From Trinickia symbiotica (GTDB lineage Bacteria; Pseudomonadota; Gammaproteobacteria; Burkholderiales; Burkholderiaceae): a DNA stretch of 64,000 nt. This document shows, piece after piece, positions 8,693-25,071 of the stretch. Position numbers and translations under genes: made by a program. The notes under the pieces were generated by a model that was given only the letters and a program-made list of their open reading frames with translations, was not told the DNA's origin and did not search any database. The stretch covers positions 62,001 to 126,000 of the forward strand of contig NZ_PTIR01000020.1 of the NCBI RefSeq assembly GCF_002934455.1, in the 5' to 3' direction. Every line of letters begins with the position of its first letter. The first letter of the stretch is position 1.

Positions 8693-8911
8693 ATGAACGG
8701 AGTGCGGACGTTCGACTTCAATGAAGCCGCCGCTTTCCTGAAGGTCGACCGAACAACTGCACTCTCGTTGGCTGGCCCAGGCCAACTACCGGGCGCAAAA
8801 ATCGGGCGAGCGTGGTTGTTCTTGAAGAGCGATGTCGTCGCCTATCTAGAACGAGAGATTGCGGCGGCCGCGGTGACGCCGTCGCTTGATACACGGTCAT
8901 CGTTTTCATAA
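8693..8911 (+). CDS. small excisionase-like helix-turn-helix protein
   Basis: 72-aa protein with a MerR/excisionase-type winged helix: FDFNEAAAFLKVDRTTALSL, then LPGAKIGRAWLFLKSDVVAYLERE. This is the pattern of excisionase-family DNA-binding domains (HTH, then an arginine and a hydrophobic strand reading W-LF-K-DV). The ATG at 8693 has no clear Shine-Dalgarno sequence. No integrase lies nearby. Its TAA overlaps the LysR-type operator at 8908, so it could be a remnant of an element inserted at tRNA-Pro. Confidence 0.55.
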   Translation: MNGVRTFDFNEAAAFLKVDRTTALSLAGPGQLPGAKIGRAWLFLKSDVVAYLEREIAAAAVTPSLDTRSSFS

Positions 8912-8970
8912 GACTTTCGTATCGCACCAGAGCAAGACAGTCTTGGCGTCAAACGGGAGCGCCACATACT
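8908..8970 (+). promoter_or_regulatory. LysR-type operator and promoter upstream of the RraA-like gene (site C)
   Basis: ATAAGACTTTCGTAT at 8908-8922 is an ATA-N9-TAT box. It is followed by CGCACCAGAG and TCTTGGCG, in which TTGGCG at 8943-8948 can serve as the -35. A CATACT -10 lies 16 bp later at 8965-8970. The layout is the same as in five other promoters of this block. The expected start site is near 8977, about 87 bases before the gene. Confidence 0.7.
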
Positions 8971-9063
8971 GTTATTGCTGCAACGACCTGCGAAGTAGCC
9001 CTGTCGAGGGAAGCGTCCGTGCGTTGTCTGCCTGCCTGTTCCATTGCGAGACGAAACCTGACC

Positions 9064-9732
9064 ATGTACAAAGCCATCAGAAAGAATCCTTCTTCGCCTC
9101 AAGCCGCCGAAAAGCTTCTGGAGGCGCTGCGCAATATTCCCGTATCTGCGCTGAGCGACAACATGCATCGCAACATTGGCAGCGTCGGACTTCAACCCTA
9201 TCAACGGCCGGGCAAGATGACGATGGCAGGCACGGCAGTCACGATGCGCTCGCGCGGCGGCGACAATCTGACGTATCTGCGCGCACTGGACTTTTGCCGT
9301 CCCGGCGACGTGCTGGTGATCGATGCAGGCGGGGATGTCAACAACGCGGTGGTCGGTGGCATCCTGACGTTTTACGCGGCGCGAGTGGGCGTGGCGGGTC
9401 TGGTGGTCGATGGTGCGATTCGCGACGTGGCTGAAATCCGCGATCGCGATTTCCCCGTCTATGCGCGAGGCGTCACGCATCGTGGACCCTACAAGGATGG
9501 CCCGGGCGAAATCAACGTGGCTGTCTCGGTGGGCGGTATGGTGGTCAATCCGGGGGATATCGTCGTCGGCGATCAGGACGGCTTGCTCGCGATTCCGCAG
9601 GTCGACGCCGGGCACGTTATCGAGAAGGCACTGGCCGTGCTCGAGAGAGAAGCCGAGACCATGCGTGCGATGAAGGAAGGGCGCTGGAGCCGCGCGTTCG
9701 TCGATGAACTCGAAGCGCGGTGTAACAACTGA
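9064..9732 (+). CDS. RraA-like protein (possible aldolase/hydratase-type enzyme)
   Basis: 222-aa RraA/HMG-aldolase-fold protein. Family marks are SDNMHR near residue 32, GTAVTMRSRGGDN, the central GDVLVIDAGGDVNNAVVGG, the GLVVDGAIRDV metal/pyruvate-site motif and the late NPGDIVVGDQDGLLAIP. These keep the Arg-Asp pair used by 4-carboxy-4-hydroxy-2-oxoadipate aldolases of this fold, so an enzymatic role on an oxo-acid is more likely than RNase E inhibition. ATG 9064 fits the family better than TTG/GTG alternatives upstream. It has its own LysR-type promoter and belongs to the catabolic block. Confidence 0.85.
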   Translation: MYKAIRKNPSSPQAAEKLLEALRNIPVSALSDNMHRNIGSVGLQPYQRPGKMTMAGTAVTMRSRGGDNLTYLRALDFCRPGDVLVIDAGGDVNNAVVGGILTFYAARVGVAGLVVDGAIRDVAEIRDRDFPVYARGVTHRGPYKDGPGEINVAVSVGGMVVNPGDIVVGDQDGLLAIPQVDAGHVIEKALAVLEREAETMRAMKEGRWSRAFVDELEARCNN

Positions 9733-9826
9733 GCCTTGATGTGGCTTTGCTCTTGTTGTCCGCGACGGCATTTTGCTTCGGTGTTAATCAGCGCCGAAAG
9801 CCGTCGCAGACAAAAAACCTTCAACT

Positions 9827-10861
9827 TCAATCGAACGTCATCAACACTTTCATCGATTTCGATCGGTCGCCTGCCGTCTGGAAAGCCTTCACGGATTCCT
9901 GATACGGAAAGACGCCTGAGATCAGCGGCTTGACGTCGATCAAGCCTTTGTTCAGCAACTCGACGGCCACCGCGAATTCCTCGTGAAATCGGAACGCGCC
10001 GCGCAGATCGAATTCCTTCGCCACGACCGCGTTCATCGGCAAGGTCATTTCGCCGCCGAGCCCGACCTGAACGATGATGCCGCGCGGCTTGAGCACATCG
10101 AACGCGCCGCGCAGCGCCGCAGCGTTGCCGCTTGCCTCGAACAGCACGTCGAAGCTGCCTTTATCGGCGGCAAACGGTTGCAGCGCGTCCGGCGCTTCGG
10201 CGACATTGAGCGCGATATCGGCGCCGACTTTCAAGGCGCTCTCCAAAGGCAACGTATTCACGTCTGTCACGACGATCGTGGCCGCGCCCGCCCGCCGTGC
10301 AGCCGCGACGATCAGCGCGCCGATTGGGCCGCAGCCGGTCACGAGCACGCGCTTGCCGAGCATCGGACCCGCACGCCGTACAGCATGGAGCGCGACGGAG
10401 AGCGGCTCGGCCATGGCCGCTTCAGCATCGCTCAACGAGTCCGCCACGAAATGGGCCTGCGACCGGTCGATCACGATCTCCTGACGAAACGCGCCTTGCA
10501 CGTGCGGCGTGCGCATTGCGCTGCCGTAGTAGCGCATGTCGAGGCAGTGATTGTGAAGACCTTGCTGACAGTATTGACACAGCCCGCATGGACGGCTCGG
10601 GCTGATGGCGATGCGCGTGCCGGCAGGCACGTCGATGACGCCCGAGCCGGCGCGCGACACGACGCCCGATACTTCATGGCCGAGCACCATCGGTTCGCGG
10701 ATGCGGACGGTGCCGAATCCGCCATGATTGAAGTAGTGAAGATCGGAGCCGCAGATGCCCCCCGCCCGAACCCGAACCAGCAACTGATTGGCTTCGGGCT
10801 CCGGCGTGGGAACGTCCTCGATGCGCAGATCCAACGGCGCGTGAATAACAAGTGCGTGCAT
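9827..10861 (-). CDS. idnD: L-idonate 5-dehydrogenase-like zinc alcohol dehydrogenase
   Basis: 344-aa zinc-dependent medium-chain dehydrogenase. The catalytic-zinc region CGSDLHYFNHGG, the GHEVSG motif, the structural-zinc cysteine cluster (PCGLCQYCQQGLHNHC) and the Rossmann motif VLVTGCGPIGALI are all present. MRYYGSAMRTPHVQGAF is typical of L-idonate 5-dehydrogenases, which oxidise L-idonate to 5-ketogluconate. The window also has gluconate 5-dehydrogenase and gluconokinase, the next two steps of that route. ATG 10861 is chosen because the longer frame adds a leader absent in the family. It has its own LysR-type promoter. Confidence 0.88.
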   Translation of the reverse strand: MHALVIHAPLDLRIEDVPTPEPEANQLLVRVRAGGICGSDLHYFNHGGFGTVRIREPMVLGHEVSGVVSRAGSGVIDVPAGTRIAISPSRPCGLCQYCQQGLHNHCLDMRYYGSAMRTPHVQGAFRQEIVIDRSQAHFVADSLSDAEAAMAEPLSVALHAVRRAGPMLGKRVLVTGCGPIGALIVAAARRAGAATIVVTDVNTLPLESALKVGADIALNVAEAPDALQPFAADKGSFDVLFEASGNAAALRGAFDVLKPRGIIVQVGLGGEMTLPMNAVVAKEFDLRGAFRFHEEFAVAVELLNKGLIDVKPLISGVFPYQESVKAFQTAGDRSKSMKVLMTFD

Positions 10862-10901
10862 GCTGTTTGCCTGTAATGGTGGAGGCTCGAACGTTCTGCA
10901 A

Positions 10902-10966
10902 ACGATAGCGGCGAATCGGCCCGCTGACAAAGAGCGAAGTCGTATGGGCCGATAGTCGCCGCTTAT
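10902..10966 (-). promoter_or_regulatory. LysR-type operator and promoter upstream of idnD (site F)
   Basis: On the minus strand ATAAGCGGCGACTAT (10966-10952) is followed by a conserved CCA, then TCTTTGTC, with TTTGTC at 10931-10926 as the -35. A CTATCG/TATCGT -10 lies at about 10908-10902. The TCTTTGTC is identical to that of site B. It sits immediately after the pntB stop codon, so idnD can be transcribed independently of the pnt genes. Confidence 0.65.
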
Positions 10967-10972: not shown

Positions 10973-12412
10973 TTAGTCGAGTGCCTTGCTCATGTTTTCG
11001 ATGACCTTTTTCGCGTCCGAAAAAACCATCATCGTCTTATCCATGTAGAACAGGTCGTTGTCGAGGCCTGCATAGCCCGATGCCATCGACCGCTTGTTGA
11101 CGATCACGGTACGCGCCTTGTACGCCTCGAGAATTGGCATGCCCGCGATAGGCGACGATGGGTCCGTCTTTGCCGCTGGATTGACTACGTCGTTTGCACC
11201 GAGAACGAGGACGACGTCGGTCTGGCCAAACTCGGCGTTGATGTCTTCCATTTCGTAAACCTGTTCGTACGGCACTTCCGCCTCCGCAAGCAGCACGTTC
11301 ATGTGGCCGGGCATGCGTCCCGCCACGGGGTGAATCGCATAGCGAACGTCGATGCCTTTGCCGGTGAGCTTGTCGGTCAGTTCCTTCAGCGCGTGCTGGG
11401 CGCGCGCAACGGCTAGCCCATAGCCCGGCACGATCACGACGGATTCCGCATTGCCGAGCAGGAAGGCTGCGTCGTCGGCTGAACCCGATTTGACGGGGCG
11501 TTGTTCGCGCTTCGTCGCACCGTCCGCCGCGGCTTCCGCACCGAAGCCGCCTAGCAGCACGCTAAGGAACGAGCGATTCATCGCGCGGCACATGATGTAC
11601 GAAAGAATCGCACCCGACGAACCTACTAGCGATCCGGCAATGATCAGCATCGAGTTGTTGAGGGAAAAGCCGATGCCTGCCGCGGCCCAGCCGGAGTACG
11701 AGTTGAGCATCGAGACGACGACGGGCATGTCGGCGCCGCCAATCGGAATGATGATCAGCACGCCGAGCATGAAGGCGATGGCCGTCACGACGATAAACGG
11801 CAACCATGACTGAGTGACGACGAACGCCAGGCCACAGGCGATCGCCGCCATCGCAAGGGCAAGATTGAGCAGGTGCTGGCCCCCGTACACGACGGGCGTG
11901 CCCTGGAAGAGCCGGAAGCGGTATTTGCCGGACAGCTTGCCGAATGCGATGACCGATCCCGAGAATGTCACTGCGCCGATGAACGTACCGATGAACAGTT
12001 CGACCCGATTGCCATAAGGCAGCACGCTGTCCGCCGTGGCAAGACCGAATGCGGACGGCTCGATCACCACTGCGCAGGCAATGCATACAGCCGCGAGGCC
12101 GATCAACGAATGCATCGCTGCAATCAGTTCGGGCATCTTCGTCATTTCGACGCGAGCGGCGATGACGGCACCAATCGATCCGCCGACAATCAACGCAATG
12201 ACGAGCAGCGACAGGCCGACTGTCAGGTCGGAGCCCAGCGCCGCGGCCTGTTTTCCGATGAGCGCGATGGTCGTCAGGATGGCGAGCGCCATACCGGCCA
12301 TCCCGAAGGTATTGCCAAGCCGCGCGCTCTTCGGATGCGACAGCCCCTTGAGCGCCTGAATGAAACAGACCGAGGCGACGAGATACAGCAACGTGACGAC
12401 ATTCATGCTCAT
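10973..12412 (-). CDS. pntB: NAD(P) transhydrogenase subunit beta
   Basis: 479-aa membrane protein of the proton-pumping transhydrogenase that makes NADPH from NADH. Several transmembrane helices (MNVVTLLYLVASVCFIQALKGL onward) lead into the C-terminal NADP(H)-binding domain III with VIVPGYGLAVARAQHALKEL, HPVAGRMPGHMNVLLAEA and VVLVLGANDVVNPAA. ATG 12412 overlaps the end of the small alpha subunit by four bases. It completes the split three-gene pnt type common in Burkholderia. Confidence 0.96.
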   Translation of the reverse strand: MSMNVVTLLYLVASVCFIQALKGLSHPKSARLGNTFGMAGMALAILTTIALIGKQAAALGSDLTVGLSLLVIALIVGGSIGAVIAARVEMTKMPELIAAMHSLIGLAAVCIACAVVIEPSAFGLATADSVLPYGNRVELFIGTFIGAVTFSGSVIAFGKLSGKYRFRLFQGTPVVYGGQHLLNLALAMAAIACGLAFVVTQSWLPFIVVTAIAFMLGVLIIIPIGGADMPVVVSMLNSYSGWAAAGIGFSLNNSMLIIAGSLVGSSGAILSYIMCRAMNRSFLSVLLGGFGAEAAADGATKREQRPVKSGSADDAAFLLGNAESVVIVPGYGLAVARAQHALKELTDKLTGKGIDVRYAIHPVAGRMPGHMNVLLAEAEVPYEQVYEMEDINAEFGQTDVVLVLGANDVVNPAAKTDPSSPIAGMPILEAYKARTVIVNKRSMASGYAGLDNDLFYMDKTMMVFSDAKKVIENMSKALD

Positions 12413-12750
12413 CGCTTGGCTCCCGTGGTTCCATTGGCACCATTCACGGCAGAGCTGCCGCTGTCCTTTTTCCTGAACATCTCGAGCATGCGGCGCGTGA
12501 CCAGAAAGCCGCCGAATACATTGACAGCCGCGAGCGCGACGGCGATTGCGCCGAACGCCTTGCCGGCCATGCCGACCGTCAACCCTGCCGCGAGCATCGC
12601 GCCGACGATGACAATGGCGGATATCGCGTTGGTGACGGCCATGAGCGGCGTATGAAGTGCAGGCGTCACATTCCACACGACGTGGTAGCCCACATAGATG
12701 GCGAGAACGAAAGTGATCAGATTGGTCGTGGTGTGAGCGATGAGTTCCAT
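12409..12750 (-). CDS. NAD(P) transhydrogenase subunit alpha part 2 (membrane)
   Basis: 113-aa membrane part of the alpha subunit, with three to four helices (NLITFVLAIYVGYHVVWNVTP, then LMAVTNAISAIVIVGAML, then AIAVALAAVNVFGGFLVTRRML). In E. coli this is the C-terminus of a single PntA; here it is a separate gene, as in Rhodospirillum and Burkholderia. It lies 10 bases after the soluble alpha part and overlaps pntB by four bases (ATGA), indicating translational coupling. Confidence 0.93.
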   Translation of the reverse strand: MELIAHTTTNLITFVLAIYVGYHVVWNVTPALHTPLMAVTNAISAIVIVGAMLAAGLTVGMAGKAFGAIAVALAAVNVFGGFLVTRRMLEMFRKKDSGSSAVNGANGTTGAKR

Positions 12751-12760
12751 CCTGTTCTCC

Positions 12761-13903
12761 TTATGCGATCTTCAGCGTCGACGCGTCGTGGCCGAGCAAC
12801 GTGGCCGCGACGATGTCGTCGCCCGTGTCTATCTTCGGCTGGCCATCGGCATCGATGATCAGCTTCAGAAAGTCGAGCACGTTGCGGGCATAGAGCGAGG
12901 ACGCTTCCGTCGCGACCATAGCGGGCAAATTGGTATAGCCGGCGATATGAACGCCGTGCCTGACGACGACTTCGTCTGTCCCGGTCAGCGTGCAGTTGCC
13001 GCCGCAGCGGTCGTTGGCGACCGCGCCGTGACCTGCGGCGAGATCGACGATCACGGAACCGCGTTTCATCGCGCGGACGGTGTCTTCGTCGAGCAGAGTC
13101 GGCGCCGTGCGTCCTTGAATCAGCGCTGTCGTGATGACGATGTCGGCCTGCCGGGCCCGCTCGTGCACCAATGCGCTCTGACGCGCGAGCCACGATGCCG
13201 GCATCGGGCGGGCATAGCCGCCCACGCCGTGGGCGGCTTCGCGCTCCTCATCGGTTTCATACGGGACGTCGAGAAATTTCGCGCCGAGCGATTCGATCTG
13301 TTCCTTGACGGTAGGGCGCACATCCGATGCTTCGATTACCGCACCGAGGCGCCTGGCCGTCGCAATCGCCTGCAGACCCGCGACACCCGCGCCGAGCACG
13401 AGTACGCGCGCTGCCTTGATGGTGCCCGCTGCCGTCATCAGCATCGGAAAGAACCGCTGATACAGCGTGGCCGCCAGCAGTACGGCCTTGTAGCCGGCGA
13501 TGTTCGCTTGCGACGACAGCACGTCCATGCTTTGCGCCCGCGTGGTCCGGGGAATCGATTCGAGTGCGAATGCACGGACGCCTGTCGCGCCGATGCGGGC
13601 GGCCTGGTCTGCGTCGAAAGGGTTGAGCATGCCGACGAGCAAGCGGCCGCGCTTGAGATGCGCGAATTCGCCATCGGTCGGTGATTGCACCTTCAGAACG
13701 AGGTCGGCATCCCATGCTTCTGTAGTGCCGACGAGCGTCGCGCCCGCCTCAGCATACGCGGTGTCGGAAAAATGGGCGCGCTCGCCAGCGCTTCTTTCGA
13801 TCAACACGGTATGGCCTTGCGCGGCGAGCCTTTTGACGGTCTCTGGCGTACCGGCGACACGCGTTTCGCCGGGGCGAATTTCGGCTGGAATGCCGATTTT
13901 CAT
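12761..13903 (-). CDS. pntA: NAD(P) transhydrogenase subunit alpha part 1 (soluble, NAD-binding)
   Basis: 380-aa NAD(H)-binding domain I, related to alanine dehydrogenase. It starts MKIGIPAEIRPGETRVAGTP, with the SSQANIAGYKAVLLAA motif and the Rossmann motif VLVLGAGVAGLQAIATARRLG followed by the acidic DVRP. ATG 13903 has a very strong AGGAGGA ribosome binding site, which decides the start over upstream codons. It begins the pntA1-pntA2-pntB set. The set may supply NADPH to the reductases of the block, which is an inference from location. Confidence 0.95.
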   Translation of the reverse strand: MKIGIPAEIRPGETRVAGTPETVKRLAAQGHTVLIERSAGERAHFSDTAYAEAGATLVGTTEAWDADLVLKVQSPTDGEFAHLKRGRLLVGMLNPFDADQAARIGATGVRAFALESIPRTTRAQSMDVLSSQANIAGYKAVLLAATLYQRFFPMLMTAAGTIKAARVLVLGAGVAGLQAIATARRLGAVIEASDVRPTVKEQIESLGAKFLDVPYETDEEREAAHGVGGYARPMPASWLARQSALVHERARQADIVITTALIQGRTAPTLLDEDTVRAMKRGSVIVDLAAGHGAVANDRCGGNCTLTGTDEVVVRHGVHIAGYTNLPAMVATEASSLYARNVLDFLKLIIDADGQPKIDTGDDIVAATLLGHDASTLKIA

Positions 13904-14074: not shown

Positions 14075-15184
14075 CTAGAACCTGTGACGCAGCCCGATTG
14101 CGGCTTCGAACAGCGAGTTGAAGCCAAAGAAAGGCTGATTCGATCCGGATGCCGCCGCGAGTGTCGTCCACGCACCCGTCAGGTGGTTGTAGTCCACGCC
14201 GACATAGACATCGGTGCGCTTGCTCAGCAGATAGTCGAATGTCGGGCCACTCGTAATGCGAGTGCCGCTTTGACCAGCGTGATGGACGAAATCGACATAG
14301 ACAGGAAGATCGAGCACGAACGTAGGCGTGATGTAGTACTGGACGGCAGCCGAGAAAGAGTCGTTGCGGTAGTCAGCGGGATAGACATGGCTGTAGATGT
14401 ACGAGCCGAACAACTTCGCCGCGCCGAACTTGTACGTTGCGCCCGCTGTGAAAATCTTCTGTGAGCTATCGGGGATCGTCACTCCGAAGTACGTGCTGCC
14501 ATAGGCCGTGGTGGCAGGATTCAGGCCGCCGATGTTGTTGACGATCTGGTAGGCCGCACCGACGTTCAAGGGGCCGTTGTCATACGAAATGCTCACGGCA
14601 GGCGACGAGTTCTGGTGGAAATTGCCTGCTGTCTGGCCGAATGTATAGGCCCCCTTGAGCGTGAAGCCGGCAAGCGTAGGCGAGGTGTAACGGACCGTAT
14701 TGTCGAGGCGCCCGCCGCCCGTCAAGCCCGCGCCCTGAAAGCCGACCGTGCCCGTGTAATTGGCGAACGCATAGATATCGTGCGTCCAGCCCGTTTCGTG
14801 CACTAGCGTGTACTGGCGTCCCAACGTCACCGTGCCGTACGGGCTGCTCAAGCCGACCAGCGCGGTGCGGCCGAACAGGCGCGCCGCGCCGGATGGCGTC
14901 GACTGCTGCGTCACGCCCGTATTCGGCGTGAAGCCGCCTTCCAGCTGGAAAATGGCTGCCAGACCGGCGCCCAGATCTTCGGTGCCTTGCAGGCCCCACC
15001 GGCTGCCCTGAATTTCTCCGCCGCTACCCATCGTGAAGAGTTTGCCGCCGGACTTGTTCTGATGCGTATCGAAGCGAACTGCTTCATCGATAATGCCGTA
15101 GAGTGTGACGCTCGATTGCGCGCATACTGCCCCAGAGGCAGCCAAAGCCGGTAAACTTAGTAGTCCTAATAGTAATTTTTTCAA
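14075..15184 (-). CDS. outer-membrane porin (TTG start)
   Basis: 369-aa general porin of the betaproteobacterial 16-stranded type. The signal peptide MKKLLLGLLSLPALAASGAVCA is cleaved before QSSVTLYG. Porin marks are GSRWGLQGTEDLGAGLAAIFQLE, GRTALVGLSSPYGTVTLGRQY and the C-terminal EAAIGLRHRF ending in Phe for BAM recognition. The only start giving a complete signal peptide is TTG at 15184, preceded by AAGGGGAT about nine bases upstream. It lies between the aminotransferase and pnt genes on the same strand, so it likely admits the block's substrate. Confidence 0.93.
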   Translation of the reverse strand: MKKLLLGLLSLPALAASGAVCAQSSVTLYGIIDEAVRFDTHQNKSGGKLFTMGSGGEIQGSRWGLQGTEDLGAGLAAIFQLEGGFTPNTGVTQQSTPSGAARLFGRTALVGLSSPYGTVTLGRQYTLVHETGWTHDIYAFANYTGTVGFQGAGLTGGGRLDNTVRYTSPTLAGFTLKGAYTFGQTAGNFHQNSSPAVSISYDNGPLNVGAAYQIVNNIGGLNPATTAYGSTYFGVTIPDSSQKIFTAGATYKFGAAKLFGSYIYSHVYPADYRNDSFSAAVQYYITPTFVLDLPVYVDFVHHAGQSGTRITSGPTFDYLLSKRTDVYVGVDYNHLTGAWTTLAAASGSNQPFFGFNSLFEAAIGLRHRF

Positions 15185-15305: not shown

Positions 15306-16514
15306 TCAGTCGAGCGCGGCGACGGCGTCTGCGATCTTCCGGCAACCTTCGTCGATGACGTCGATGCTCGTCGCGATCGACATGCGGAAGAAGGGCGATA
15401 CGCCATAAGCGGATCCGGCGACGAGTGCGACGCCGGCCTGTTCGAGCAGATACAGGACGACATCCGTATCGCCTTCGAGGCGCTCACCTTGCGGCGTCGT
15501 GCGTCCGATCAGACCGCTGCAGTTGACGTAGAGATAAAACGCGCCGCCCGGTGTCTTGCAACTGATGCCGGGAATGGCGTTGAGCGATTCGAGCGCGCGA
15601 TCGCGGCGCGCCCTATACGTCTGCACGGATTCCTGCACGAAGGTCTGATCGCCCGTCAGTGCGGCGAGCGCCGCGGCCTGACTGATCGTGCAGGCATTGC
15701 TGGTCGATTGCGATTGCAGCGTGTCGAGTGCAGCGATCAGGTCGGCGGGACCGGCCACGTAGCCGATACGCCAGCCCGTCATCGCGTACGTCTTAGACAC
15801 GCCGTTGACCACTAGCGTGCGCGATGCGAGCGCCGGTTCGATGGCCAGCAGGTGTGGCGTGGCGTCGCTGTCGAAGCGGATGTGCTCGTAGATGTCGTCC
15901 ATCATCACCAGCACGTTCGGATGACGCAGCAGGACGTCGGCGAGTGCGCGCAGTTCCCGGCCCGTATAAGTCGCGCCCGTCGGATTGGTCGGAGAATTGA
16001 TGATCAGCCAGCGCGTGCGCGATGTGATTGCGGCTTCGAGCAGAGCAGGAGTGAGCTTGAAGCCGTCCTCTTCGGTGCAAGGGACGACGACGGGCACGCC
16101 GTCGCATGCGAGTGCCATGTCCGGATAGGAGACCCAGTACGGCGCGGGAATCAGCACCTCATCACCGGCTTCGACCGTGATGGCGAGCGCATTGAAGATC
16201 GCATGCTTGGCGCCGCACGTCACGATGATGTCTTTGGGGTCGTACGGGAGGCCGTTCTCGCGTTGCAGCTTCGCCGCGATCGCGGCCCGCAGCGCGGGCG
16301 TGCCGGCCGTCGCCGTGTAGCGCGTTTCGCCGCGTTCCATCGCGTCGAAGGCAGCCTTGCGGATATGCGCGGGCGTGTCAAAATCGGGCTCGCCGACCAC
16401 CAGATTGACGATGTGTTTTCCCTGCCGCCTCAGTTCCGCAGCCCTATCGGCCGCCGCGCTGCTTGGTGATGGTTTGATCCGCTGGACGCGGGCCGCGATG
16501 CGCGATGCACTCAC
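15306..16514 (-). CDS. class I/II PLP aminotransferase (aspartate aminotransferase-like)
   Basis: 402-aa fold-type I aminotransferase of the AspC subgroup Igamma. Visible motifs are GEPDFDTPAHIRKAA, TCGAKHAIFNAL, the Asn of INSPTNPTGA, the PLP lysine in VSKTYAMTGWRIGYV and the substrate Arg in FFRMSIATS. Members take aspartate, glutamate, aromatic amino acids or prephenate, so the substrate is open. It is transcribed away from the LysR gene and starts 36 bases after a LysR-type promoter, which ties it to the regulon. The PLP and substrate residues are intact. Confidence 0.88.
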   Translation of the reverse strand: MSASRIAARVQRIKPSPSSAAADRAAELRRQGKHIVNLVVGEPDFDTPAHIRKAAFDAMERGETRYTATAGTPALRAAIAAKLQRENGLPYDPKDIIVTCGAKHAIFNALAITVEAGDEVLIPAPYWVSYPDMALACDGVPVVVPCTEEDGFKLTPALLEAAITSRTRWLIINSPTNPTGATYTGRELRALADVLLRHPNVLVMMDDIYEHIRFDSDATPHLLAIEPALASRTLVVNGVSKTYAMTGWRIGYVAGPADLIAALDTLQSQSTSNACTISQAAALAALTGDQTFVQESVQTYRARRDRALESLNAIPGISCKTPGGAFYLYVNCSGLIGRTTPQGERLEGDTDVVLYLLEQAGVALVAGSAYGVSPFFRMSIATSIDVIDEGCRKIADAVAALD

Positions 16515-17781: not shown

Positions 17782-17941
17782 TTGAGTCCATCGCCAGTCG
17801 CCCGGCGTGCAGTGAGCCGGCGCGATAAGGCTTGCCGTCGAGCTGGCGACACAACGGCCCTAAGTCAGCCCCGTCGCGCAGCCGCGGTGTTTCGCGCACG
17901 CCGCTCTTGCCGCGTGCGCCTAACCGGCTACGGGCTCAAGG

Positions 17942-18460
17942 ATGGATCTTCAGAAGATAAAAGCACTGATCGACCTGCTGGCGGAATCGCCGCTCGACAG
18001 GCTCGAGGTGATCGAAGGCGAGGAACGGGTCAAGCTTGTCAAGGCAAAACGTCGTGGCGGCCGCGGCGCTGTGCAACGGGGCGAAGACCGCTCCGCTGCG
18101 CCGCTCCTGGGCGAGCGGCAAGAGAGGGGCGAGCCGTTCGATGAGACGACGAATGCCGTCGACACCACCCGCGCAGCAACCAGTGCGCGCAGCGCGACGG
18201 CTGCGACGGCTGCGACGGCCGACACACCGCAGATCGTTCGCGCACCGATGTTCGGCATCGTTCACCTCACGCCGTCGCCGGGTGAAGCGCCGTTCGTGCA
18301 GGTGGGCGACTCCGTCGTAGAAGGGCAGGTGCTGTGCACGATTGAAGCGATGAAGATGTTCAACGCGATCGAGTGCGATTGCCGCGGCACGCTATACGAG
18401 GTGCTCGTCGCGCCTGGTAGCGAAGTCGAATCGGGTCAACCGCTCTTTCGCATCGGCTGA
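17942..18460 (+). CDS. biotin carboxyl carrier protein (intact biotinylation motif)
   Basis: 172-aa carrier protein. The N-terminal MDLQKIKALIDLLAESPLDR and the following strand are AccB-like. A low-complexity Ala/Thr linker (encoded by a nine-base repeat near 18194-18220) leads to the biotinyl domain with IEAMKMFNAIECD. The acceptor Lys is residue 138, 34 residues from the C-terminus as usual. It is the first gene of a six-gene operon with its own biotin carboxylase and KipI/KipA-type subunits, so it probably serves that enzyme and not fatty-acid synthesis. Confidence 0.87.
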   Translation: MDLQKIKALIDLLAESPLDRLEVIEGEERVKLVKAKRRGGRGAVQRGEDRSAAPLLGERQERGEPFDETTNAVDTTRAATSARSATAATAATADTPQIVRAPMFGIVHLTPSPGEAPFVQVGDSVVEGQVLCTIEAMKMFNAIECDCRGTLYEVLVAPGSEVESGQPLFRIG

Positions 18461-18466
18461 TCGACC

Positions 18467-19819
18467 ATGTTCAACAAGGTACTGATTGCCAATCGCGGCG
18501 AAATTGCGCTTCGCATCCAGCGTGCGTGTCACGAACTGGGGCTCAAGACGGTCGCCGTCTATTCCGAGCCGGACGTCGATGCGCGCTACGTTCGGTTGGC
18601 CGATGAGGCGCTATGCATCGGCCCTGCATCGCCGGGCCAGAGCTATCTGAGCCATGCCGCGATTCTGTTTGCGGCCCACGTGAGCGGAGCAGAAGCGATT
18701 CATCCCGGTTACGGGTTCCTCTCCGAGAACGCGGACTTTGCCGCTGAAATCGAAGCGGCGGGGCTCACCTTTATCGGCCCGGCGCCGCATTCGATCCGCA
18801 CGATGGGCGACAAGGTCGCCGCCAAGCGCGCGATGCGCGCAGCGGGCGTGCCTTGCGTGCCGGGGCCGGACGGCAGCCTGCCGGACGATCCCGACCTCAT
18901 CATGCGGATCGCGGAAGAGATCGGCTTTCCCGTGATCGTGAAGGCAGCAGGGGGCGGCGGCGGGCGTGGCATGCGGGTCGTGCGCGAGCCCGATCAACTG
19001 CTGGAGGCGGTTACCGTGACACGTGAGGAAGCTCGCCGCGCGTTTGGCAAGTCCGAGCTTTACGTCGAGAAATTCCTCCAGTATCCGCGCCATGTCGAAA
19101 TCCAGGTCCTGTGCGATACGCACGGTAACGCTTTGTGGCTTGGCTCACGCGACTGCTCGCTGCAACGCCGGCATCAGAAAGTGCTGGAGGAGGCGCCCGC
19201 GCCGGGCATTGATCCGCAGCTGATTCGCCATGTAGGCGAACGCTGCGCGCAAGCGTGCCGGCAGATCGGCTATCGCGGAGCGGGCACCTTCGAATTTCTG
19301 TTCGAAGATGACTGCTTCTACTTCATCGAAATGAATACACGGCTGCAGGTCGAGCACCCCGTGACCGAAATGACCTCGGGCATTGACATCGTGCGAGAGC
19401 AGATTCGCATCGCACAAGGTCACGCACTGAGTGTGAGTCAGCGCGATATCCGCACGCAAGGGCACGCTTTTGAATGCCGGATCAACGCGGAAGATCCGTT
19501 TTCGTTCGTGCCTTGCCCGGGCAAGATCGAGGTGTGGGAATTGCCCGGCGGCAACGGCGTCCGCGTGGATTCGCACATTAGCAGCGGTTCCGTCGTCCCG
19601 CCCTATTACGACTCGCTGATCGCCAAGGTCATCACGCACGGCGACACGCGCGACGAGGCGTTGACACGCATGCGTGCCGCGCTGTCGGAACTGCGCATCG
19701 AAGGCATACGCACCAACGTGCCGCTGCATCGCGCCATGCTCGGCGACGAGGGGTTCCAGGCAGGCGGGGTCGATATACATCATCTCGAGCGCTGGCTCGC
19801 AGAAAGGAAGCAGGTATGA
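18467..19819 (+). CDS. accC: biotin carboxylase subunit (AccC paralogue)
   Basis: 450-aa ATP-grasp biotin carboxylase that carboxylates carrier-bound biotin using ATP and bicarbonate. It has the N-terminal [20 protein letters not shown], the glycine-rich ATP loop [14 protein letters not shown], the catalytic [16 protein letters not shown] and the late [13 protein letters not shown]. Length equals stand-alone AccC. The setting next to KipI/KipA homologues suggests a dedicated paralogue, comparable to the biotin-carboxylase part of urea carboxylase. Its TGA overlaps the next start (ATGA). Confidence 0.92.
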
Positions 19820-20574
19820 CGCTGACCATTGAGCATGCGTCGATGGGTGACTCGGCCACATCCCGTGGGCGTCAGCGGAACGCCACGAGGGCGGCACCCG
19901 CGATGAACCGCGACGAATCGGAGCAGCAGTTGACCATCAGCATGTTGGGGACAACGGCCATGCTGTTCGAGGCGCCGGGCGCACTAGATCTGCCGGCGCA
20001 ACGGCGCATCTGGTCGCTCGCCCGCGAAGTCGAATCATGGCCGGGCGTGCGCGAAGCGGTGCCGGGCGTCACCAATCTGATGCTGACGTTTGTCACGCCG
20101 CCTGCTGACCCCGACTCGCTCGCCGACGCGTTACGCGACGCATGGACGGCAGCAGGCGAGTTGCAGATCGAAGGCAAGATCGTCGAGTTACCCGTCGTGT
20201 ACGGCGGCGAATTCGGGCCACATCTGCAGGATGTCGTCGACCACACGGGACTGTCCGTCGACGAGGTCGTGCGCTTGCACTGCGCGCCGCTTTATACCGT
20301 CTATGCGCTGGGCAGCCATCCGGGGTACTGCTATCTCGGAGGGATGGACCCGCGCATCGCCACGCCGCGCCGCAAGGTGCCCGTGCTGCGCCTGCCCGGC
20401 GGCGCGGTGTCGATTGGCGGCGTGCAAACGGGCGTGTCGGCGTCGACGGGGCCAAGCGGCTGGAACACCATCGGCCATACGTCGATGGTGTTCTTCGATC
20501 CATCGAGAGACAACCCGGCAACGCTCGCACCCGGCGACATGATCCGTTTTCGCGTCGAGAGGATTATCCGATGA
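19816..20574 (+). CDS. pxpB: PxpB/KipI-family subunit (carboxyltransferase N-half)
   Basis: 252-aa KipI/PxpB (AHS1, allophanate hydrolase subunit 1) family protein. The conserved core is [27 protein letters not shown], then [34 protein letters not shown] and GWNTIGHT. An extra N-terminal stretch of about 40 residues precedes the domain; ATG 19816 is kept for its overlap with accC, but an internal start is possible. The same domain forms half of the carboxyltransferase of urea carboxylase, and PxpB is part of 5-oxoprolinase. The symbol denotes the family; substrate identity is open. Confidence 0.85.
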
Positions 20575-21578
20575 TCGAGGTACTGTCTTCATCCGCGCTC
20601 GCCACGGTGCAGGACCATGGCCGCGAGGGCTATCTGCGCTACGGTGTCGGTACGGCGGGCGCGATGGACCGGCTGGCGCTCGCGGTCGGCAATCTGCTGC
20701 TCGGCAATCCCGACGACGCAGCCGGCATCGAAATTCCGATGTTCCCCTTTCGCATCCGCTTTCTCGATGCCCTCGACTTCGCCATTACGGGCGCCGATTG
20801 CGCTGCGCGGCTGGGTGATAAACCCGTGCTGCCCTGGTGGACGACGCATGCAAGAAAGGGCGATGTCTTGACCGTCGGCGTGCCGAATAACGGCATGCGG
20901 TGCTATCTGTCGCTCGCGGGCGGCGTGGACGTCCCTGTCGTGCTCGGTTCGCGCAGCACGCAGTTGCGCGGCCAGTTCGGCGGCTACGAAGGCCGTCAGT
21001 TGCACAAGGGCGATGTGCTCAAGGCAATCGGCTGCATTCACCGCGCCGAACCCGATCAAGCGGTGCACAGCGCGGGCTTCGGCATGGTACCGCCCGAACA
21101 TGCGTTGCCCGCGCCCGTGTCCACGCCATGCGCTGAAGTGGGCGACACGGTAGTGCGCGTGCTGCCCGCGGCCGAATACGACGGCTATCAGCCGCAATCG
21201 ATCGAAGCGTTTTGGCGCGAAGGATGGAAAGTCACGACGCAGAGCGACCGGTACGGCTATCGGCTAGCGGGTCCAACGCTGGAGCCGGTGCGCCACATCG
21301 AAAAGCGATCGCACGGCATCGTGCCTGGCGTGATCCAGGTGCCGCACAGCGGCCAGCCGATCATTCAGTTGCGCGACGCGCAGCCATCGGGTGGTTATCC
21401 GAAGATCGGCACGGTGATTGAGGCGGACCTGTGGCGGCTCGCTCAGGCGCGTATCGGGACGAAGATCCGTTTTGCCCAGGCGACGTACCAGGAAGCCGTC
21501 GCCGCACTGGACGAACTCGAGCATTACCTCACGCGGGTCCGCCATCTCATAGGACTCTTTCGTTCCTCCAGACACTGA
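20571..21578 (+). CDS. pxpC: PxpC/KipA-family subunit (biotin-dependent carboxyltransferase family)
   Basis: 335-aa AHS2/KipA-family protein. It starts [26 protein letters not shown]-type and contains the invariant GAMDRLALAVGNLLLGNP, the SLAGGVDVPVVLGSRST motif and the late SHGIVPGVIQVPHSGQPII with the family tail. It partners KipI/PxpB. In urea carboxylase the two domains are fused and carry out carboxyl transfer from biotin to an amide nitrogen. The gene overlaps pxpB by four bases and is followed three bases later by the second carrier-like gene. Confidence 0.88.
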   Translation: MIEVLSSSALATVQDHGREGYLRYGVGTAGAMDRLALAVGNLLLGNPDDAAGIEIPMFPFRIRFLDALDFAITGADCAARLGDKPVLPWWTTHARKGDVLTVGVPNNGMRCYLSLAGGVDVPVVLGSRSTQLRGQFGGYEGRQLHKGDVLKAIGCIHRAEPDQAVHSAGFGMVPPEHALPAPVSTPCAEVGDTVVRVLPAAEYDGYQPQSIEAFWREGWKVTTQSDRYGYRLAGPTLEPVRHIEKRSHGIVPGVIQVPHSGQPIIQLRDAQPSGGYPKIGTVIEADLWRLAQARIGTKIRFAQATYQEAVAALDELEHYLTRVRHLIGLFRSSRH

Positions 21579-21581
21579 AAC

Positions 21582-22043
21582 ATGACACAGAAAATCGAAG
21601 TCGATCTCGGGGAGATTCGGCAGATCACAGCGTGGCTGGCCGCGAGCGATATCGGGTTCATCGAGGTCAGCAAGTCTGGCGCAACCGTGCGTCTGAAGGT
21701 CGACGACGGGCATCGTAGTGGCAAGGGCACTCTGGCCGAGCCATCGGCGGCATCGGCATCTGCGACGCGCACAGGCAGCACGCAGTACGCCCGCACACAG
21801 GCCGTCAGCGTGATGGCCAAAACAGTGGCCGTCTTTCTCGCGGCGCATCCGGCGCATTCGACGCCGCTCGTCGAAGCCGGCGCTCGTGTCGGGCAGGGCG
21901 ATGTGATCGGGCTGCTGCAAATCGCGCATCTTTGTGTGCCCGTGGTTGCACCTGTTGCGGGCGTGGTGACGCAACCGCTCGTCGCGCATGGTGTGACAGT
22001 GGGCTACGGCACGCCGTTGTTCGAGATTGTGCCGATAGCCTAG
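21582..22043 (+). CDS. biotinyl/lipoyl-domain protein without the biotinyl lysine
   Basis: 153-aa protein built like AccB: an N-terminal segment (VDLGEIRQITAWLAASDIGF), a Ser/Ala/Thr linker and a C-terminal biotinyl-like barrel (PLVEAGARVGQGDVIGLLQI, then VVAPVAGVVTQPLVAHGVTV, then GYGTPLFEIVP). Where a true carrier has E-A-M-K-M the sequence reads QIAHLCVPV, so no lysine is available for biotin. It lies three bases after the KipA-type gene. A structural or targeting role is more likely than carrying biotin; the intact carrier is the first gene of the operon. Confidence 0.8.
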   Translation: MTQKIEVDLGEIRQITAWLAASDIGFIEVSKSGATVRLKVDDGHRSGKGTLAEPSAASASATRTGSTQYARTQAVSVMAKTVAVFLAAHPAHSTPLVEAGARVGQGDVIGLLQIAHLCVPVVAPVAGVVTQPLVAHGVTVGYGTPLFEIVPIA

Positions 22044-22089
22044 ACGCATCTCGATCGACGGCATCGGATGAGAAAACGGAGAATGGATT

Positions 22090-22857
22090 GTGGAAATAGA
22101 TCTCAACGCCGATCTCGGCGAAGGCTTCGGACCGTACCGGATGGGCGAGGACGAAGCGATGCTCGATGTCGTGTCGTCCGCGAACGTGGCATGTGGGTTT
22201 CACGCGGGCGATCCCGTCATCATGGATAGAACGGTGCGTCTCGCGCTCGCGCGCCGGATCGAAGTGGGCGCGCATGTCGGCTTTCCCGATCTGCTCGGTT
22301 TCGGCCGTCGGCAGATTCAGGCCGATCCGCTGGAACTGGCGAACTATGTCGTCTATCAGATGGGCGCGCTTGCCGGCATCGCGAAGCGGGCGGGGTATCG
22401 AGTCACGCATATGAGCTTTCATGGGGCGCTCGGCAATATGGCTGCGGCGTCGTACGAACTGGCCGAGCCGCTGGTGCGAGCCGTGTCTGAATTCGACCGC
22501 GACCTCATCATCAGCGTATCCACGAACACCGAGATCGAGCGCGCAGCGGATCGCATCGGCATTCGCACGGCGAACACGTTTCTCGCCGACCGGGCCTACG
22601 ACGATCAGGGTGTGCTCGTGTCGCGCAAGCTCGAAGGCGCCGTCATCAAGGACCGTGCGGCCGTGATGGCGCGTGTCCAGACGCTGCTCGAAGACGGCAC
22701 GATCACGACCATCACCGGCAACAAGCTCAGGATGAAAGTGCAGTCGATCCTGTTGCACGGCGACACGCCCGGCGCCGTCGAACTCGCGCGCGCGGTGCGC
22801 GGCTCGATCGAAGCGGCGGGCGGCCGCGTGGTGCCCGTATCGAAGGTGGTTCGATAG
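22090..22857 (+). CDS. pxpA: LamB/YcsF (PxpA-like) protein with altered active-site loop
   Basis: 255-aa YcsF/PxpA family TIM-barrel protein starting at GTG 22090 (EIDLNADLGEGFGPYRMGED). Family motifs SSANVACGFHAGDPVIM, VGAHVGFPDLLGFGRR and ILLHGDTPGAVELAR are present. The usual V-K-P-H-G-x-L-Y-N loop is replaced by M-S-F-H-G-A-L-G-N, losing the conserved Lys, Pro and Tyr. PxpA works with PxpBC in ATP-dependent 5-oxoproline opening, so the change suggests another substrate. The symbol is by family only. It ends the operon. Confidence 0.85.
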   Translation: MEIDLNADLGEGFGPYRMGEDEAMLDVVSSANVACGFHAGDPVIMDRTVRLALARRIEVGAHVGFPDLLGFGRRQIQADPLELANYVVYQMGALAGIAKRAGYRVTHMSFHGALGNMAAASYELAEPLVRAVSEFDRDLIISVSTNTEIERAADRIGIRTANTFLADRAYDDQGVLVSRKLEGAVIKDRAAVMARVQTLLEDGTITTITGNKLRMKVQSILLHGDTPGAVELARAVRGSIEAAGGRVVPVSKVVR

Positions 22858-22891: not shown

Positions 22892-22954
22892 ATAAGCGAG
22901 CCTTATTGCTACAAATCCAATCCGTCTTTGTCCCGTGTTTTCACGACGTATAGA
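22892..22954 (+). promoter_or_regulatory. LysR-type operator and promoter of the SDR-ghrB operon (site B)
   Basis: ATAAGCGAGCCTTAT at 22892-22906 differs from site A by one base. It is followed by TGCTACAAAT and TCTTTGTC, with TTTGTC at 22927-22932 as the -35 and an excellent TATAGA -10 at 22949-22954 after 16 bp. The predicted start near 22961 leaves a leader of about 55 bases. Confidence 0.72.
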
Positions 22955-23015
22955 TTCCAAACAGACGTATCGCCCATCTTGCAAAGCGATACTAGACTTG
23001 AGACAGAGGTCATTC

Positions 23016-23765
23016 ATGCCGTTTTCAGACTATAAGACCGCGCTCGTGACGGGCGCTTCCACGGGTATGGGCGCGGCGATCGTCGAGCGATTCTGTCGCG
23101 AAGGACTCGAAGTGCACGCGCTGGCACGTAGTGCCGATCGCCTGAATGAACTGGCGGCGCGCACCGGCTGCATTCCGCATGCGATCGACGTCAGCGATCT
23201 GCCGGCCGTGACGAAGCTGACGCAGGAGGTGCCGTTCGACATCGTCGTCAACAATGCGGGCGTGTCCCGCAAGGGCTCGATTCTGGACGCAGGCGTCGAG
23301 GATATCGACGTTCAGGTTGAAGTGAACCTGCAAGCCGTGCTGCATATCGTTCGGCTCACGATGCCGGGCATGGTCGCGCGCGACTGCGGCCATATCGTCA
23401 ATATCAGCTCGATTGCGGCTATCTACAACTTCAACGGCAATTCGATCTATCACGCGACCAAGGCAGCGATCCATGCATTGTCGCGTCAGTTGCGCGTCGA
23501 TGCGACGGGCAAGCGCGTGCGCGTGACGGAGATTTGTCCAGGCCGCGTCGCCACCGATATTTTCGGTCACGTCCACGGCAATATCGAAGAGGCGCGCAAG
23601 CAGTTCATCGAAGGCTTCGAACTGCCGACACCGGCCGACATCGCCGACGCCATTGCGTTCGCCATTGCCGCACCGCTCGCGGTGAATATCAGCAACATGG
23701 AAATTTTGCCCACGCTGCAGGTGCCAGGCGGGCTTACGACGATCAAGCGGGGGCCCGCTGGGTAG
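23016..23765 (+). CDS. short-chain dehydrogenase/reductase (YdfG-like)
   Basis: 249-aa classical SDR. The cofactor motif TGASTGMG, the NNAG motif and the catalytic Ser with Tyr-His-Ala-Thr-Lys (ISSIAAIYNFNGNSIYHATK) are present. The sequence is closest in feel to the NADP-dependent 3-hydroxy acid/serine dehydrogenase group (YdfG), but specificity is not certain. ATG 23016 follows AGAGG by six bases and is preferred over the longer frame at 22935, which would begin upstream of the predicted transcription start. The D-2-hydroxyacid dehydrogenase follows after 73 bases. Confidence 0.85.
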   Translation: MPFSDYKTALVTGASTGMGAAIVERFCREGLEVHALARSADRLNELAARTGCIPHAIDVSDLPAVTKLTQEVPFDIVVNNAGVSRKGSILDAGVEDIDVQVEVNLQAVLHIVRLTMPGMVARDCGHIVNISSIAAIYNFNGNSIYHATKAAIHALSRQLRVDATGKRVRVTEICPGRVATDIFGHVHGNIEEARKQFIEGFELPTPADIADAIAFAIAAPLAVNISNMEILPTLQVPGGLTTIKRGPAG

Positions 23766-23838
23766 GCCGGGTAGGCGCACAAGGTCGGCGCCTCTGGGCA
23801 GCCGCTTTCAATCATCACAGACTTAAAGGAGATCTTTC

Positions 23839-24849
23839 ATGCGTGTACCGGTACTCGTGACCCGAGCGTCGTTTCCCGACATCGTCGATCGCCTGCGCAC
23901 GAACTTCGATGTCACCGACAATCCGGACGACACGATCTGGACGCAGCCGGAACTGATCGCACGTCTGCAAGGGAAAGTCGGCGCGATGACGGCAGGCAGC
24001 GACCGTATCGATGCGACGCTGCTCGATGCCTGTCCCCAACTCAGAGCTGTGTGCAACATCGGCGTCGGCTACAACAACATCGACGTGGACGCATGCACCG
24101 CGCGCGGCGTGATTGTGACGAACACGCCGGACGTTCTCACCGATACGACGGCTGATTTTGGCTTTGCGCTGATGATGGCCACCGCGCGGCGCATCGCCGA
24201 GTCGGAGCACTATCTGCGCGGCGGCCTCTGGACGAAAACGGGACGCTACGACATGTTCGTCGGCGGTGACGTGCATGGCTCTACACTCGGCATTCTCGGC
24301 ATGGGTCGCATCGGGCAGGCGATTGCGCGTCGCGGCGCATTCGGATTCAACATGCGCGTGATCTATCACAACCGCTCGCAATTGCCGGCACATGTGGAGG
24401 AAAGCTGCGGTGCGCACTACGTCGACAAGGCAACGCTGTTGCGCGAGTCCGATCATCTGATCGTAGTGGTGCCGTATTCCGCGAGTTCTCATCATACGAT
24501 CGGCGCGGCCGAACTGAAGCAGATGAAGTCGTCGGCGACGCTGACCAACATCGCGCGCGGCGGCGTTGTGGACGATGCCGCGCTGGCCGAGGCGCTCAAG
24601 GAGGGCAGCATCGCGGCAGCGGGGCTGGACGTGTTCGAAGGCGAGCCCGTTGTGCATCGCGCCCTGCTCGCGCAGAAAAACGTCGTGCTGACGCCGCATA
24701 TCGGCAGCGCATCGGTTTCCACTCGGCGCGCGATGGCCTCGCTTTGCGCGGACAACCTCATTGCGGCGCTGGGCTGTGGTCCGACGGCGGGCAAGCCGCC
24801 GACGCCTGTGAATCCGCAGGTATTGTCGGGCGCGCTGGAAGAGCGCTAA
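23839..24849 (+). CDS. ghrB: D-2-hydroxyacid dehydrogenase (glyoxylate/hydroxypyruvate/2-ketogluconate reductase-like)
   Basis: 336-aa D-isomer-specific 2-hydroxyacid dehydrogenase. It has the substrate-loop NIGVGYNNIDVDACTARG, the Rossmann motif LGILGMGRIGQAIARRG, the NIARGGVVDD motif, catalytic Glu in FEGEPVVHR and the His of LTPHIGSAS. It best matches the GhrB/TkrA group, which reduces glyoxylate, hydroxypyruvate and 2-ketogluconate. With idnD, gntK and gluconate 5-dehydrogenase close by, a keto-sugar-acid substrate is plausible. An AAGGAGAT ribosome binding site precedes the ATG. Confidence 0.88.
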   Translation: MRVPVLVTRASFPDIVDRLRTNFDVTDNPDDTIWTQPELIARLQGKVGAMTAGSDRIDATLLDACPQLRAVCNIGVGYNNIDVDACTARGVIVTNTPDVLTDTTADFGFALMMATARRIAESEHYLRGGLWTKTGRYDMFVGGDVHGSTLGILGMGRIGQAIARRGAFGFNMRVIYHNRSQLPAHVEESCGAHYVDKATLLRESDHLIVVVPYSASSHHTIGAAELKQMKSSATLTNIARGGVVDDAALAEALKEGSIAAAGLDVFEGEPVVHRALLAQKNVVLTPHIGSASVSTRRAMASLCADNLIAALGCGPTAGKPPTPVNPQVLSGALEER

Positions 24850-24879
24850 GAGCCCCATGCGTATGACGTGATGCAAGTC

Positions 24880-24908
24880 CATGTGCGCTCGCATTACGAG
24901 CGCACATG
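24880..24908 (+). terminator. hairpin after ghrB
   Basis: CATGTGCGCTCG and CGAGCGCACATG form a perfect 12-bp stem with a 5-base loop, 31 bases after the ghrB stop. It is followed by CAAAAC, not a T-run, so termination strength is uncertain. Confidence 0.6.
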
Positions 24909-25007
24909 CAAAACGACAAACGAGGCGCCCGTAGAGGCGCCCACATTGGAGACATATCCCATGCCCGACTTCGCTCGAGCCACGGCTGTAAGCCGGTTCA
25001 GCCCATC

Positions 25008-25071
25008 ATTCCCGAAACTTATCGCACCAGAGGAAAGGCCTCTGCAAGGGCCTTTTTTTGCGAGCTAGTAT
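25008..25071 (+). promoter_or_regulatory. LysR-type operator and promoter of the ABC importer operon (site D, degenerate)
   Basis: ATTCCCGAAACTTAT at 25008-25022 (ATT-N9-TAT) is followed by CGCACCAGAG, identical over ten bases to site C, and by TCT at the conserved spacing. A CTAGTA/TAGTAT -10 lies at 25065-25071. It lacks the TTGGC -35 of the other sites. A T-tailed hairpin overlaps the middle of the element. Confidence 0.5.
25034..25059 (+). terminator. rho-independent terminator inside the ABC promoter region
   Basis: AAAGGCC (25034-25040) pairs with GGCCTTT (25049-25055) around an 8-base loop, and a run of seven T ends at 25059. It probably ends transcription from the SDR-ghrB operon just upstream of the importer's own start site. 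Confidence 0.7.

Follow-up and report, generated by a model that had tools for sequence, protein, structure and literature searches.

Six related operator sites around a Nac-like LysR gene in Trinickia symbiotica: a probable local regulon with relatives in three classes of Proteobacteria

A 64-kb stretch of the genome of Trinickia symbiotica (positions 62,001 to 126,000 of contig NZ_PTIR01000020.1; hereafter the window) carries six sites that share one composite operator, arranged around a gene for a LysR-type regulator with a Nac-like DNA-binding domain. An earlier note on this DNA had read these sites as a single LysR regulon. That reading is supported by the co-occurrence of the operator with the LysR gene and by its near absence elsewhere: the two are found together in alpha-, beta-, and gammaproteobacteria, while copies outside the locus are essentially not found in the genomes that we searched. 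The regulon is real as regards its sites, their statistics, their conservation, and the kinship of its regulator to Nac. We infer from the sequence that the LysR protein (16796–17722) very probably recognises the six sites and, in response to a metabolite of the pathway, switches on the six units downstream of them.

Six sites with one composite operator

The sites start at 8908 (+), 10966 (-), 16612 (-), 17719 (+), 22892 (+), and 25008 (+) (Table 1), and the positions, strands, and letter counts reported for them in the note are all correct. Every site has AT at positions 1–2, TAT at 13–15, G at 17, CA at 21–22, and TCT at 34–36; five have ATAAG at 1–5 and T at 37, and three have TTGGC. A gene start lies downstream of each of them, in agreement with the claim that each precedes a transcription unit, and the LysR gene is indeed placed in the middle of the block. 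Its stop codon is overlapped by the ATAAG of site 17719.

A 41-bp matrix trained on all six sites separates them from the rest of the window (weakest site 34.2, best other place 10.2). When each site was held out in turn and both strands of the 64 kb were scored at this length, three to five places did better than the held-out site, which is at most the five trained ones. With a held-out 24-bp matrix, 10 places in the window outscored 10966 and 6 outscored 8908. At the scale of the 6.71-Mb genome, the core pattern ATAAGN7TATNGN3CAN11TCTT with up to two mismatches gave five exact matches, all in the cluster, and a single match with two mismatches (reversed-pattern control: one match). A refined pattern with up to three mismatches returned the five sites and one match with three mismatches, at window position 32103, which we regard as chance because the reversed control likewise gives one. 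Site 25008 is too divergent for both patterns.

We built a profile of the operator from 49 nonredundant sites of other genomes with less than 70% mutual identity (50 before one ATT-type copy of site 6 was dropped). These had been picked with the matrix of the six window sites; the choice inflates the apparent conservation of positions 1–41 and leaves that of 60–65 unaffected. The profile reads A1 T2 A3 A4 G5, Y12 T13 A14 T15, C21 A22 N A24, A28 W29, T34 C35 T36 T37, T60 A61 N3 T65. The TA-N3-T frame starts at position 60 in 39 of the 49 sites and at 61 in another 8; because it recurs in 47 of the 49, at positions unused in the selection, we place the −10 element at 60–65, where the five full sites of the window have it (59–64 in 25008), and not at 58–63 as first suggested. 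With the last −10 base taken as −7, the inferred start falls near position 72 and the centre of the dyad near −64, instead of near −62. A TTGGCG-like −35 occupies positions 36–41 (TTGGC 36–40). The recognition dyad ATAAG-N5-CTTAT is perfect at window sites 17719 and 22892, and in site 16612 the second element also forms a dyad (AAG-N4-CTT). Five of the six sites have the layout of a LysR-type operator, with a T2-N11-A14 dyad at about −64 (counted from the inferred −10) and TCTT at 34–37. This layout fits the LysR model described in two papers, with a dyad near −65 and a second site over the −35 (PMC4834489, PMC6628147).

The operator and the LysR gene across genomes

Of 120 loci that encode a LysR related to that of the window, our sample comprises the best 80 (61–96% identity; 1.52 Mb in total); at one step of the comparison, 80 of 82 operator loci were taken in. 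The matrix of the six window sites found 262 sites scoring at least 17 and matched every one of the 80 loci at least once; a site scoring at least 25 is present in 77 of the 80. On the same loci, 30 column-permuted matrices gave a mean of 1.2 matches and a maximum of 5. All 262 sites have, 60–340 bp downstream, the start of an open frame that is 100 codons or longer, but 298 of 400 random places have one too, which leaves this count little weight.

Among 150 Burkholderiaceae genomes (here the grouping of the taxonomy used for the genome set), the exact refined operator is present in 10 and an ortholog of LysR (at least 63% identity) in 9. The operator occurs in all nine genomes with the ortholog and in 1 of the 141 without it. 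This one genome (G142; locus L138, 6380–6682) comes from a relative of the window's genus, and its site stands beside a 71-residue fragment of the window's idnO-like gene. The region contains no other cluster gene, only distant accC- and pxpC-like stretches (35–41%, in a frame of 1199 residues). Since the site adjoins the idnO fragment without the rest of the cluster, it is apparently the relic of a deleted cluster, a regulatory fossil.

The core with at most one mismatch was also searched in 11 whole genomes of several families, drawn from among the 80 loci, and gave 37 matches (reversed pattern: 0). In each genome, all matches lie on one contig within 14 kb, at the LysR locus. Because they are confined there in 11 of 11 genomes, the regulator appears dedicated to its own locus. 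In a Pseudomonas locus (L062), a second LysR-like stretch, with 45% identity to the window's LysR, lies between two copies of one operator-promoter (10915 and 11589) that agree at 85 bases; we read this as a local duplication of the promoter and perhaps of the regulator.

A local regulator with kinship to Nac

The window's LysR scores 446.8 bits against NF008410 (NCBIfam NAC, cut-off 309), and among 120 sampled genomes of the order this cut-off is passed by one, namely this genome. It shares 84% identity with E. coli Nac in the DNA-binding domain and 42% in the effector domain; effector domains within the operator-linked group are 52–68% identical to each other (five sequences compared). The note's description of a Nac-type protein is apt for the DNA-binding domain. 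The label "nitrogen regulator" is not warranted here, because the composite sites are local and no sigma-54/NtrC promoter precedes lysR in Burkholderiaceae (see below); the automatic name "nitrogen assimilation regulator NAC" can thus mislead outside enterobacteria.

Phylogenetic trees place the window's LysR in a betaproteobacterial branch, outside the enterobacterial Nac clade, and nest Nac inside the operator-linked LysRs. The first tree, which contained far paralogs, was rebuilt using nearer outgroups; between a set of 50 rows and one of 53 rows, the nearer outgroups were kept, some near-copies were dropped, and intermediates and more Nac sequences were added. In the 53-row tree, Nac groups with Rouxiella/Serratia (bootstrap 96, Shimodaira-Hasegawa-like approximate likelihood ratio test 82), with the Enterobacterales (100/98), and with the gammaproteobacteria (96/88); the corresponding support in the 50-row tree is 83/52, 99/95, and 89/74. 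The operator-linked group is kept whole in none of 200 bootstrap trees, with either set. An approximately unbiased test of the operator-linked LysRs as one clade without Nac, a grouping chosen after the first tree had been seen, rejected this clade with 53 rows (p 0.024) but not with 50 rows (p 0.139); the nesting of Nac is therefore favoured, not proved. Neither an operator scoring at least 10 nor cluster genes (compared here, and at first in the 80 loci, with sdr1 and abcA set aside) were found near seven intermediate Enterobacteriaceae LysRs, in 18 kb each, or near 27 Nac genes, in stretches of about 4 kb (14 kb in E. coli). One genome (G435) has both a Nac (72% identical to that of E. coli) and a local regulator with cluster and operators.

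We counted sigma-54 −24/−12 boxes and NtrC-like dyads upstream of the regulator gene by fixed rules, in loci of which many are close relatives and not independent. Before the lysR of Burkholderiaceae, sigma-54 boxes are found in 0 of 25 loci and NtrC-like dyads in 1 of 25, and the alphaproteobacterial and Lysobacterales metagenome-assembled genomes (MAGs) have neither (0/4 each). The counts are 5/7 and 2/7 in Oxalobacteraceae/Comamonadaceae (with L139, which groups there in the tree), 32/37 and 24/37 in gammaproteobacteria outside the Enterobacterales (37 of 38 loci used; the other groups are complete), 11/11 and 8/11 for the local regulators of Enterobacterales (including one duplicate, L177 being identical to L082), 6/7 and 6/7 for the intermediates, and 26/27 and 26/27 for the Nac genes; shuffled controls give 0–6%. 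The counting method was checked on E. coli nac, where the match is the sigma-54 site listed in PMC4591121, and nac is described as activated by NtrC in PMC9731577. With such elements before its gene, the gammaproteobacterial local regulator seems to link sigma-54 to sigma-70 in a regulatory cascade. This is not so in the window's family, and the promoters of the Burkholderiaceae branch suggest no nitrogen link.

A lone ATAAG-N7-TAT dyad, without CANA and TCTT, occurs within 300 bp upstream of lysR in 29 of the 37 gammaproteobacterial loci outside the Enterobacterales (0.1% in shuffles). A previous count of 32/38 was discarded, since in L066, L068, and L069 the match is the palindrome of a composite site on the other strand. 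In 19 of the 37 loci, the dyad stands between the scored NtrC-like site and the scored sigma-54 box, an arrangement that is reportedly also that of Klebsiella nac autorepression. A lone dyad upstream of lysR fits autoregulation without sigma-70 activation and serves as an internal control for the role proposed for the full site. Nature has in this sense dissected the operator: both parts are present where sigma-70 activation would be required, and the dyad alone at the gammaproteobacterial regulator gene. By the first counting rule, the lone dyad is found in 0/11 local regulators of Enterobacterales, 3/7 intermediates, and 3/27 Nac genes; the single case in Burkholderiaceae (1/23) is a copy of site 3, truncated where the stretch ends. 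In several gammaproteobacterial loci, L036, L044, L058, and L086 among them, it lies mostly 20–57 bp upstream of the sigma-54 box. In the window (16745–16796) and in most Paraburkholderia-group loci compared, a CTTGCCCTATCAT/TATGAT-like stretch, resembling a sigma-70 −10, stands where gammaproteobacteria have the sigma-54 box.

On these grounds we lean towards an origin of the global Nac of Enterobacteriaceae from a dedicated, locus-bound LysR of this kind, with Nac as an offshoot of the local regulator; this is favoured and not settled. The gammaproteobacterial local regulator would already have had a gene under sigma-54/NtrC-like control that fed sigma-70 promoters through the two-part operator. 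Nac would then have left the cluster, kept its DNA-binding domain, and drifted in its effector domain, and it may have dispensed with the second operator element, a bare dyad then being enough across the genome. This makes a testable route from a local catabolic regulator to a global one. The local regulator is like the Nac of E. coli and Klebsiella in its DNA-binding domain and, among its gammaproteobacterial relatives, in the sigma-54 and NtrC-like elements upstream of its gene. It is unlike Nac in being local instead of global, in its composite operator with CANA and TCTT, in its divergent effector domain, and, in Burkholderiaceae, in having no sigma-54 element before lysR. Klebsiella Nac is said to use an ATA-N9-TAT box and to activate from about −64, a further likeness.

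Proposed mechanism and alternative explanations

The full site would work as follows. A recognition dyad, ATAAG-N5-CTTAT, near −64 is followed by the conserved CANA at 21–24; a second half-site (AA-N6-TT, ending in TCTT) merges into the −35 (TTGGC), and the TA-N3-T of the −10 comes 18 bp further on. Under the usual LysR model, one dimer would sit on the upstream dyad, and the inducer would allow the other to occupy the half-site at the −35 and bring in RNA polymerase.

Other explanations of the sites are possible in principle. The shared words could be those of ordinary strong sigma-70 promoters, with chance adding the rest: TTGGC and TA-N3-T are −35 and −10 elements, some of which are present in every promoter. 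However, most of ATAAG, TAT, CANA, and TCTT falls outside the core promoter, these words hardly vary between sites (in part by selection), matches in matched controls are close to zero, and a generic promoter consensus scan detects one of the six sites, 10966 (TTGTCA-17-TATCGT). As a full account this explanation is refuted, and we leave it virtually no chance. It is improbable, too, that a regulator encoded elsewhere binds the composite site and that the LysR gene is a passenger in the cluster. The operator does co-occur with other cluster genes, but these vary between loci when the window's own gene set is compared, whereas LysR is present in 80 of 80 (by selection); moreover, the dyad is of the type ATA-N9-TAT, reportedly the Nac consensus, and the window's LysR has the DNA-binding domain to match. 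This domain and the score above the NAC cut-off would also agree with a true global Nac, for which the six sites were a few among many nitrogen-regulated targets. Such a role is still less probable: the genome has no further full composite sites (the scan covers the composite site, not bare ATA-N9-TAT boxes), the promoters of lysR in the 25 Burkholderiaceae loci speak against it, as does the low identity of the effector domain, and the protein stands outside the Nac clade.

Several observations weigh against binding of all six sites by the window's LysR as the one explanation. Co-occurrence alone does not single out LysR, because other cluster genes also travel with the operator, and the matches are not independent events, because the loci are related to each other. 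The best sites in the 10 Enterobacterales loci score just 23–35. The idonate/gluconate genes of the window are outside the core shared between loci (gntK and idnO being beyond the flank in most of them). A weight-matrix scan of the kind proposed in the note separates the sites at 41 bp, where only trained sites rank above a held-out one, but loses a single site at the full 63 bp, where 20 places, at least 15 of them non-sites, rank above the held-out 10966. Lastly, the six sites are not equal: five are full, and 25008 lacks the left half-site and TTGGC.

Nevertheless, 25008 is probably a real, if variant, member of the LysR regulon, though less sure than the other five. It comes next after the trained sites in held-out 41-bp scoring of the window, although with a 66-bp matrix made from other genomes only it scores 2.9, just over the best background value of 0.5, against 38–61 for the other five. 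Other Burkholderiales keep it as a variant of its own before their ABC-transporter (ATP-binding cassette) genes. Copies are found upstream of these genes in 18 loci, as grouped roughly by distance from lysR, the rule used for all site groups across loci; by eye, all 18 have CTTAT and CCAGA and 16 have TCTG and TAGTAT. The site overlaps a terminator-like hairpin with a T-run (fold −22.6 kcal/mol, z −2.9). We rejected a role as terminator only, as some Caballeronia copies, by eye, lose the stem but keep the operator words and TAGTAT.

A comparable layout is known from the benzoate-muconate regulators BenM, CatM, and CatR, for which PMC6628147 gives an ATAC-N7-GTAT Site 1 and a Site 2 that covers the −35. 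The two-part arrangement is alike; the regulator is a different one, and the half-sites are ATAC/GTAT there and ATAAG/CTTAT in the window. The two-mismatch match of the genome scan (C2:365550; L094 1501) shows an ATACC/GGTAT dyad, CCAGA, and TCTTGG spaced as in the window's sites, and its neighbour is a LysR paralog with 29% identity. We take it as a BenM/CatM-like operator of this paralog and not as a seventh member; the layout seems to recur, with different half-sites, among paralogous LysRs. By eye, the gene start at this place reads like that of a muconate cycloisomerase.

Cluster genes and candidate pathway

The features of the cluster are collected in Table 1. By their families, the genes at 17942..22857 read as PxpABC-type lactamase genes with a biotin carboxylase. 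PxpA passes subfamily NF003814 (335.7 bits, cut-off 226), and PxpC falls short of its equivalog (307, cut-off 500). The gluconokinase and the gluconate 5-dehydrogenase-like short-chain dehydrogenase/reductase (SDR) would, judging from their spacing, belong to the ABC-transporter unit.

Table 1. Operator-promoters and genes of the cluster in the window
Feature	Position	Strand	Remarks
Operator-promoter 1	8908..8973	+	upstream of RraA-like gene; -10 TACTGT 8967-8972
RraA-like aldolase/decarboxylase family gene	9064..9732	+	PF03737; NF004850 over cut-off
Zinc alcohol dehydrogenase	9827..10861	-	nearest L-idonate 5-dehydrogenase, below that equivalog's cut-off
Operator-promoter 2	10901..10966	-	upstream of idonate-dehydrogenase-like gene; -10 TATCGT 10907-10902
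Transhydrogenase pntB, pntA2, pntA1	10973..13903	-	family search; starts approximate
Porin	14075..15184	-	PF13609
Class I/II aminotransferase	15306..16514	-	aspartate transaminase equivalog PRK06107, over cut-off
Operator-promoter 3	16547..16612	-	upstream of aminotransferase gene, divergent from lysR; -10 TAATGT
LysR-type regulator, Nac-like DNA-binding domain	16796..17722	+	Pfam HTH_1 (N-terminal) and LysR_substrate (C-terminal)
Operator-promoter 4	17719..17784	+	upstream of accB/accC/pxpBC/pxpA run; -10 TACATT
accB-like, accC-like, pxpB, pxpC, second biotin/lipoyl-like, pxpA	17942..22857	+	family search
Operator-promoter 5	22892..22957	+	upstream of SDR and 2-hydroxyacid dehydrogenase genes; -10 TAGATT
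SDR and D-2-hydroxyacid (glyoxylate reductase-like) dehydrogenase	23016..24849	+	family search
Site 6 (divergent)	25008..25073	+	upstream of amino-acid ABC transporter genes; -10 TAGTAT 25066-25071
Polar amino-acid ABC transporter (two permeases, ATPase, binding protein), gluconokinase, gluconate 5-dehydrogenase-like SDR	25179..29625	+	family search

The core common to the fetched loci consists of PxpABC, the SDR, the ABC transporter, and the aminotransferase, in a cross-locus gene table that leaves out pntA2 and accB2 and in which absences are upper bounds, several loci being short and flanks ending at 10 kb. Biotin carboxylase is present in 22/22 loci of Burkholderiaceae, 6/6 of Oxalobacteraceae/Comamonadaceae, 33/38 of other gammaproteobacteria, and 3/3 alphaproteobacterial MAGs, and weakly in 1/10 Enterobacterales loci. 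In the same order of groups, rraA is found in 14/22, 4/6, 0/38, 3/3, and 0/10, and hadh in 20/22, 4/6, 1/38 (weak), 0/3, and 0/10. Sites resembling site 1 precede rraA in other loci too.

Because the core combines a PxpABC-type lactamase, an SDR, an ABC importer, and an aminotransferase, it suggests that the regulon imports and degrades one compound, a cyclic-amide amino acid being the likeliest kind. Idonate/gluconate catabolism was rejected as the regulon's pathway, as it fits this window only. As a guess, and a doubtful one, PxpABC might open a hydroxylated lactam; after transamination, the RraA-like aldolase would cleave it, and the glyoxylate-reductase-like enzyme would reduce the product. 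This route fits the loci in which aspAT, rraA, and hadh are clustered. The data point to a lactam-type catabolic pathway with its own regulator in three classes of Proteobacteria. We found no account of this pathway, and neither the regulon nor an origin of Nac is described in the literature matches listed (titles and starts of abstracts, mostly of non-subscription literature).

A PxpABC cluster with a dedicated regulator is known from Corynebacterium glutamicum, where pxpTABC is under the GntR-type repressor PxpR according to PMC13274462, whose authors state that, to their knowledge, the regulation of bacterial 5-oxoproline metabolism had not been studied before. The window differs from it in having a LysR with several sites and, as most loci outside the Enterobacterales, an added biotin carboxylase.

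Upstream of the cluster, short open frames fill about 1 kb (7891–8900) after a tRNA gene at window positions 7756–7829. The one searched among them, 8246–8785, had no Pfam match. This segment is possibly a worn insertion at the tRNA gene, ending where site 1 starts.

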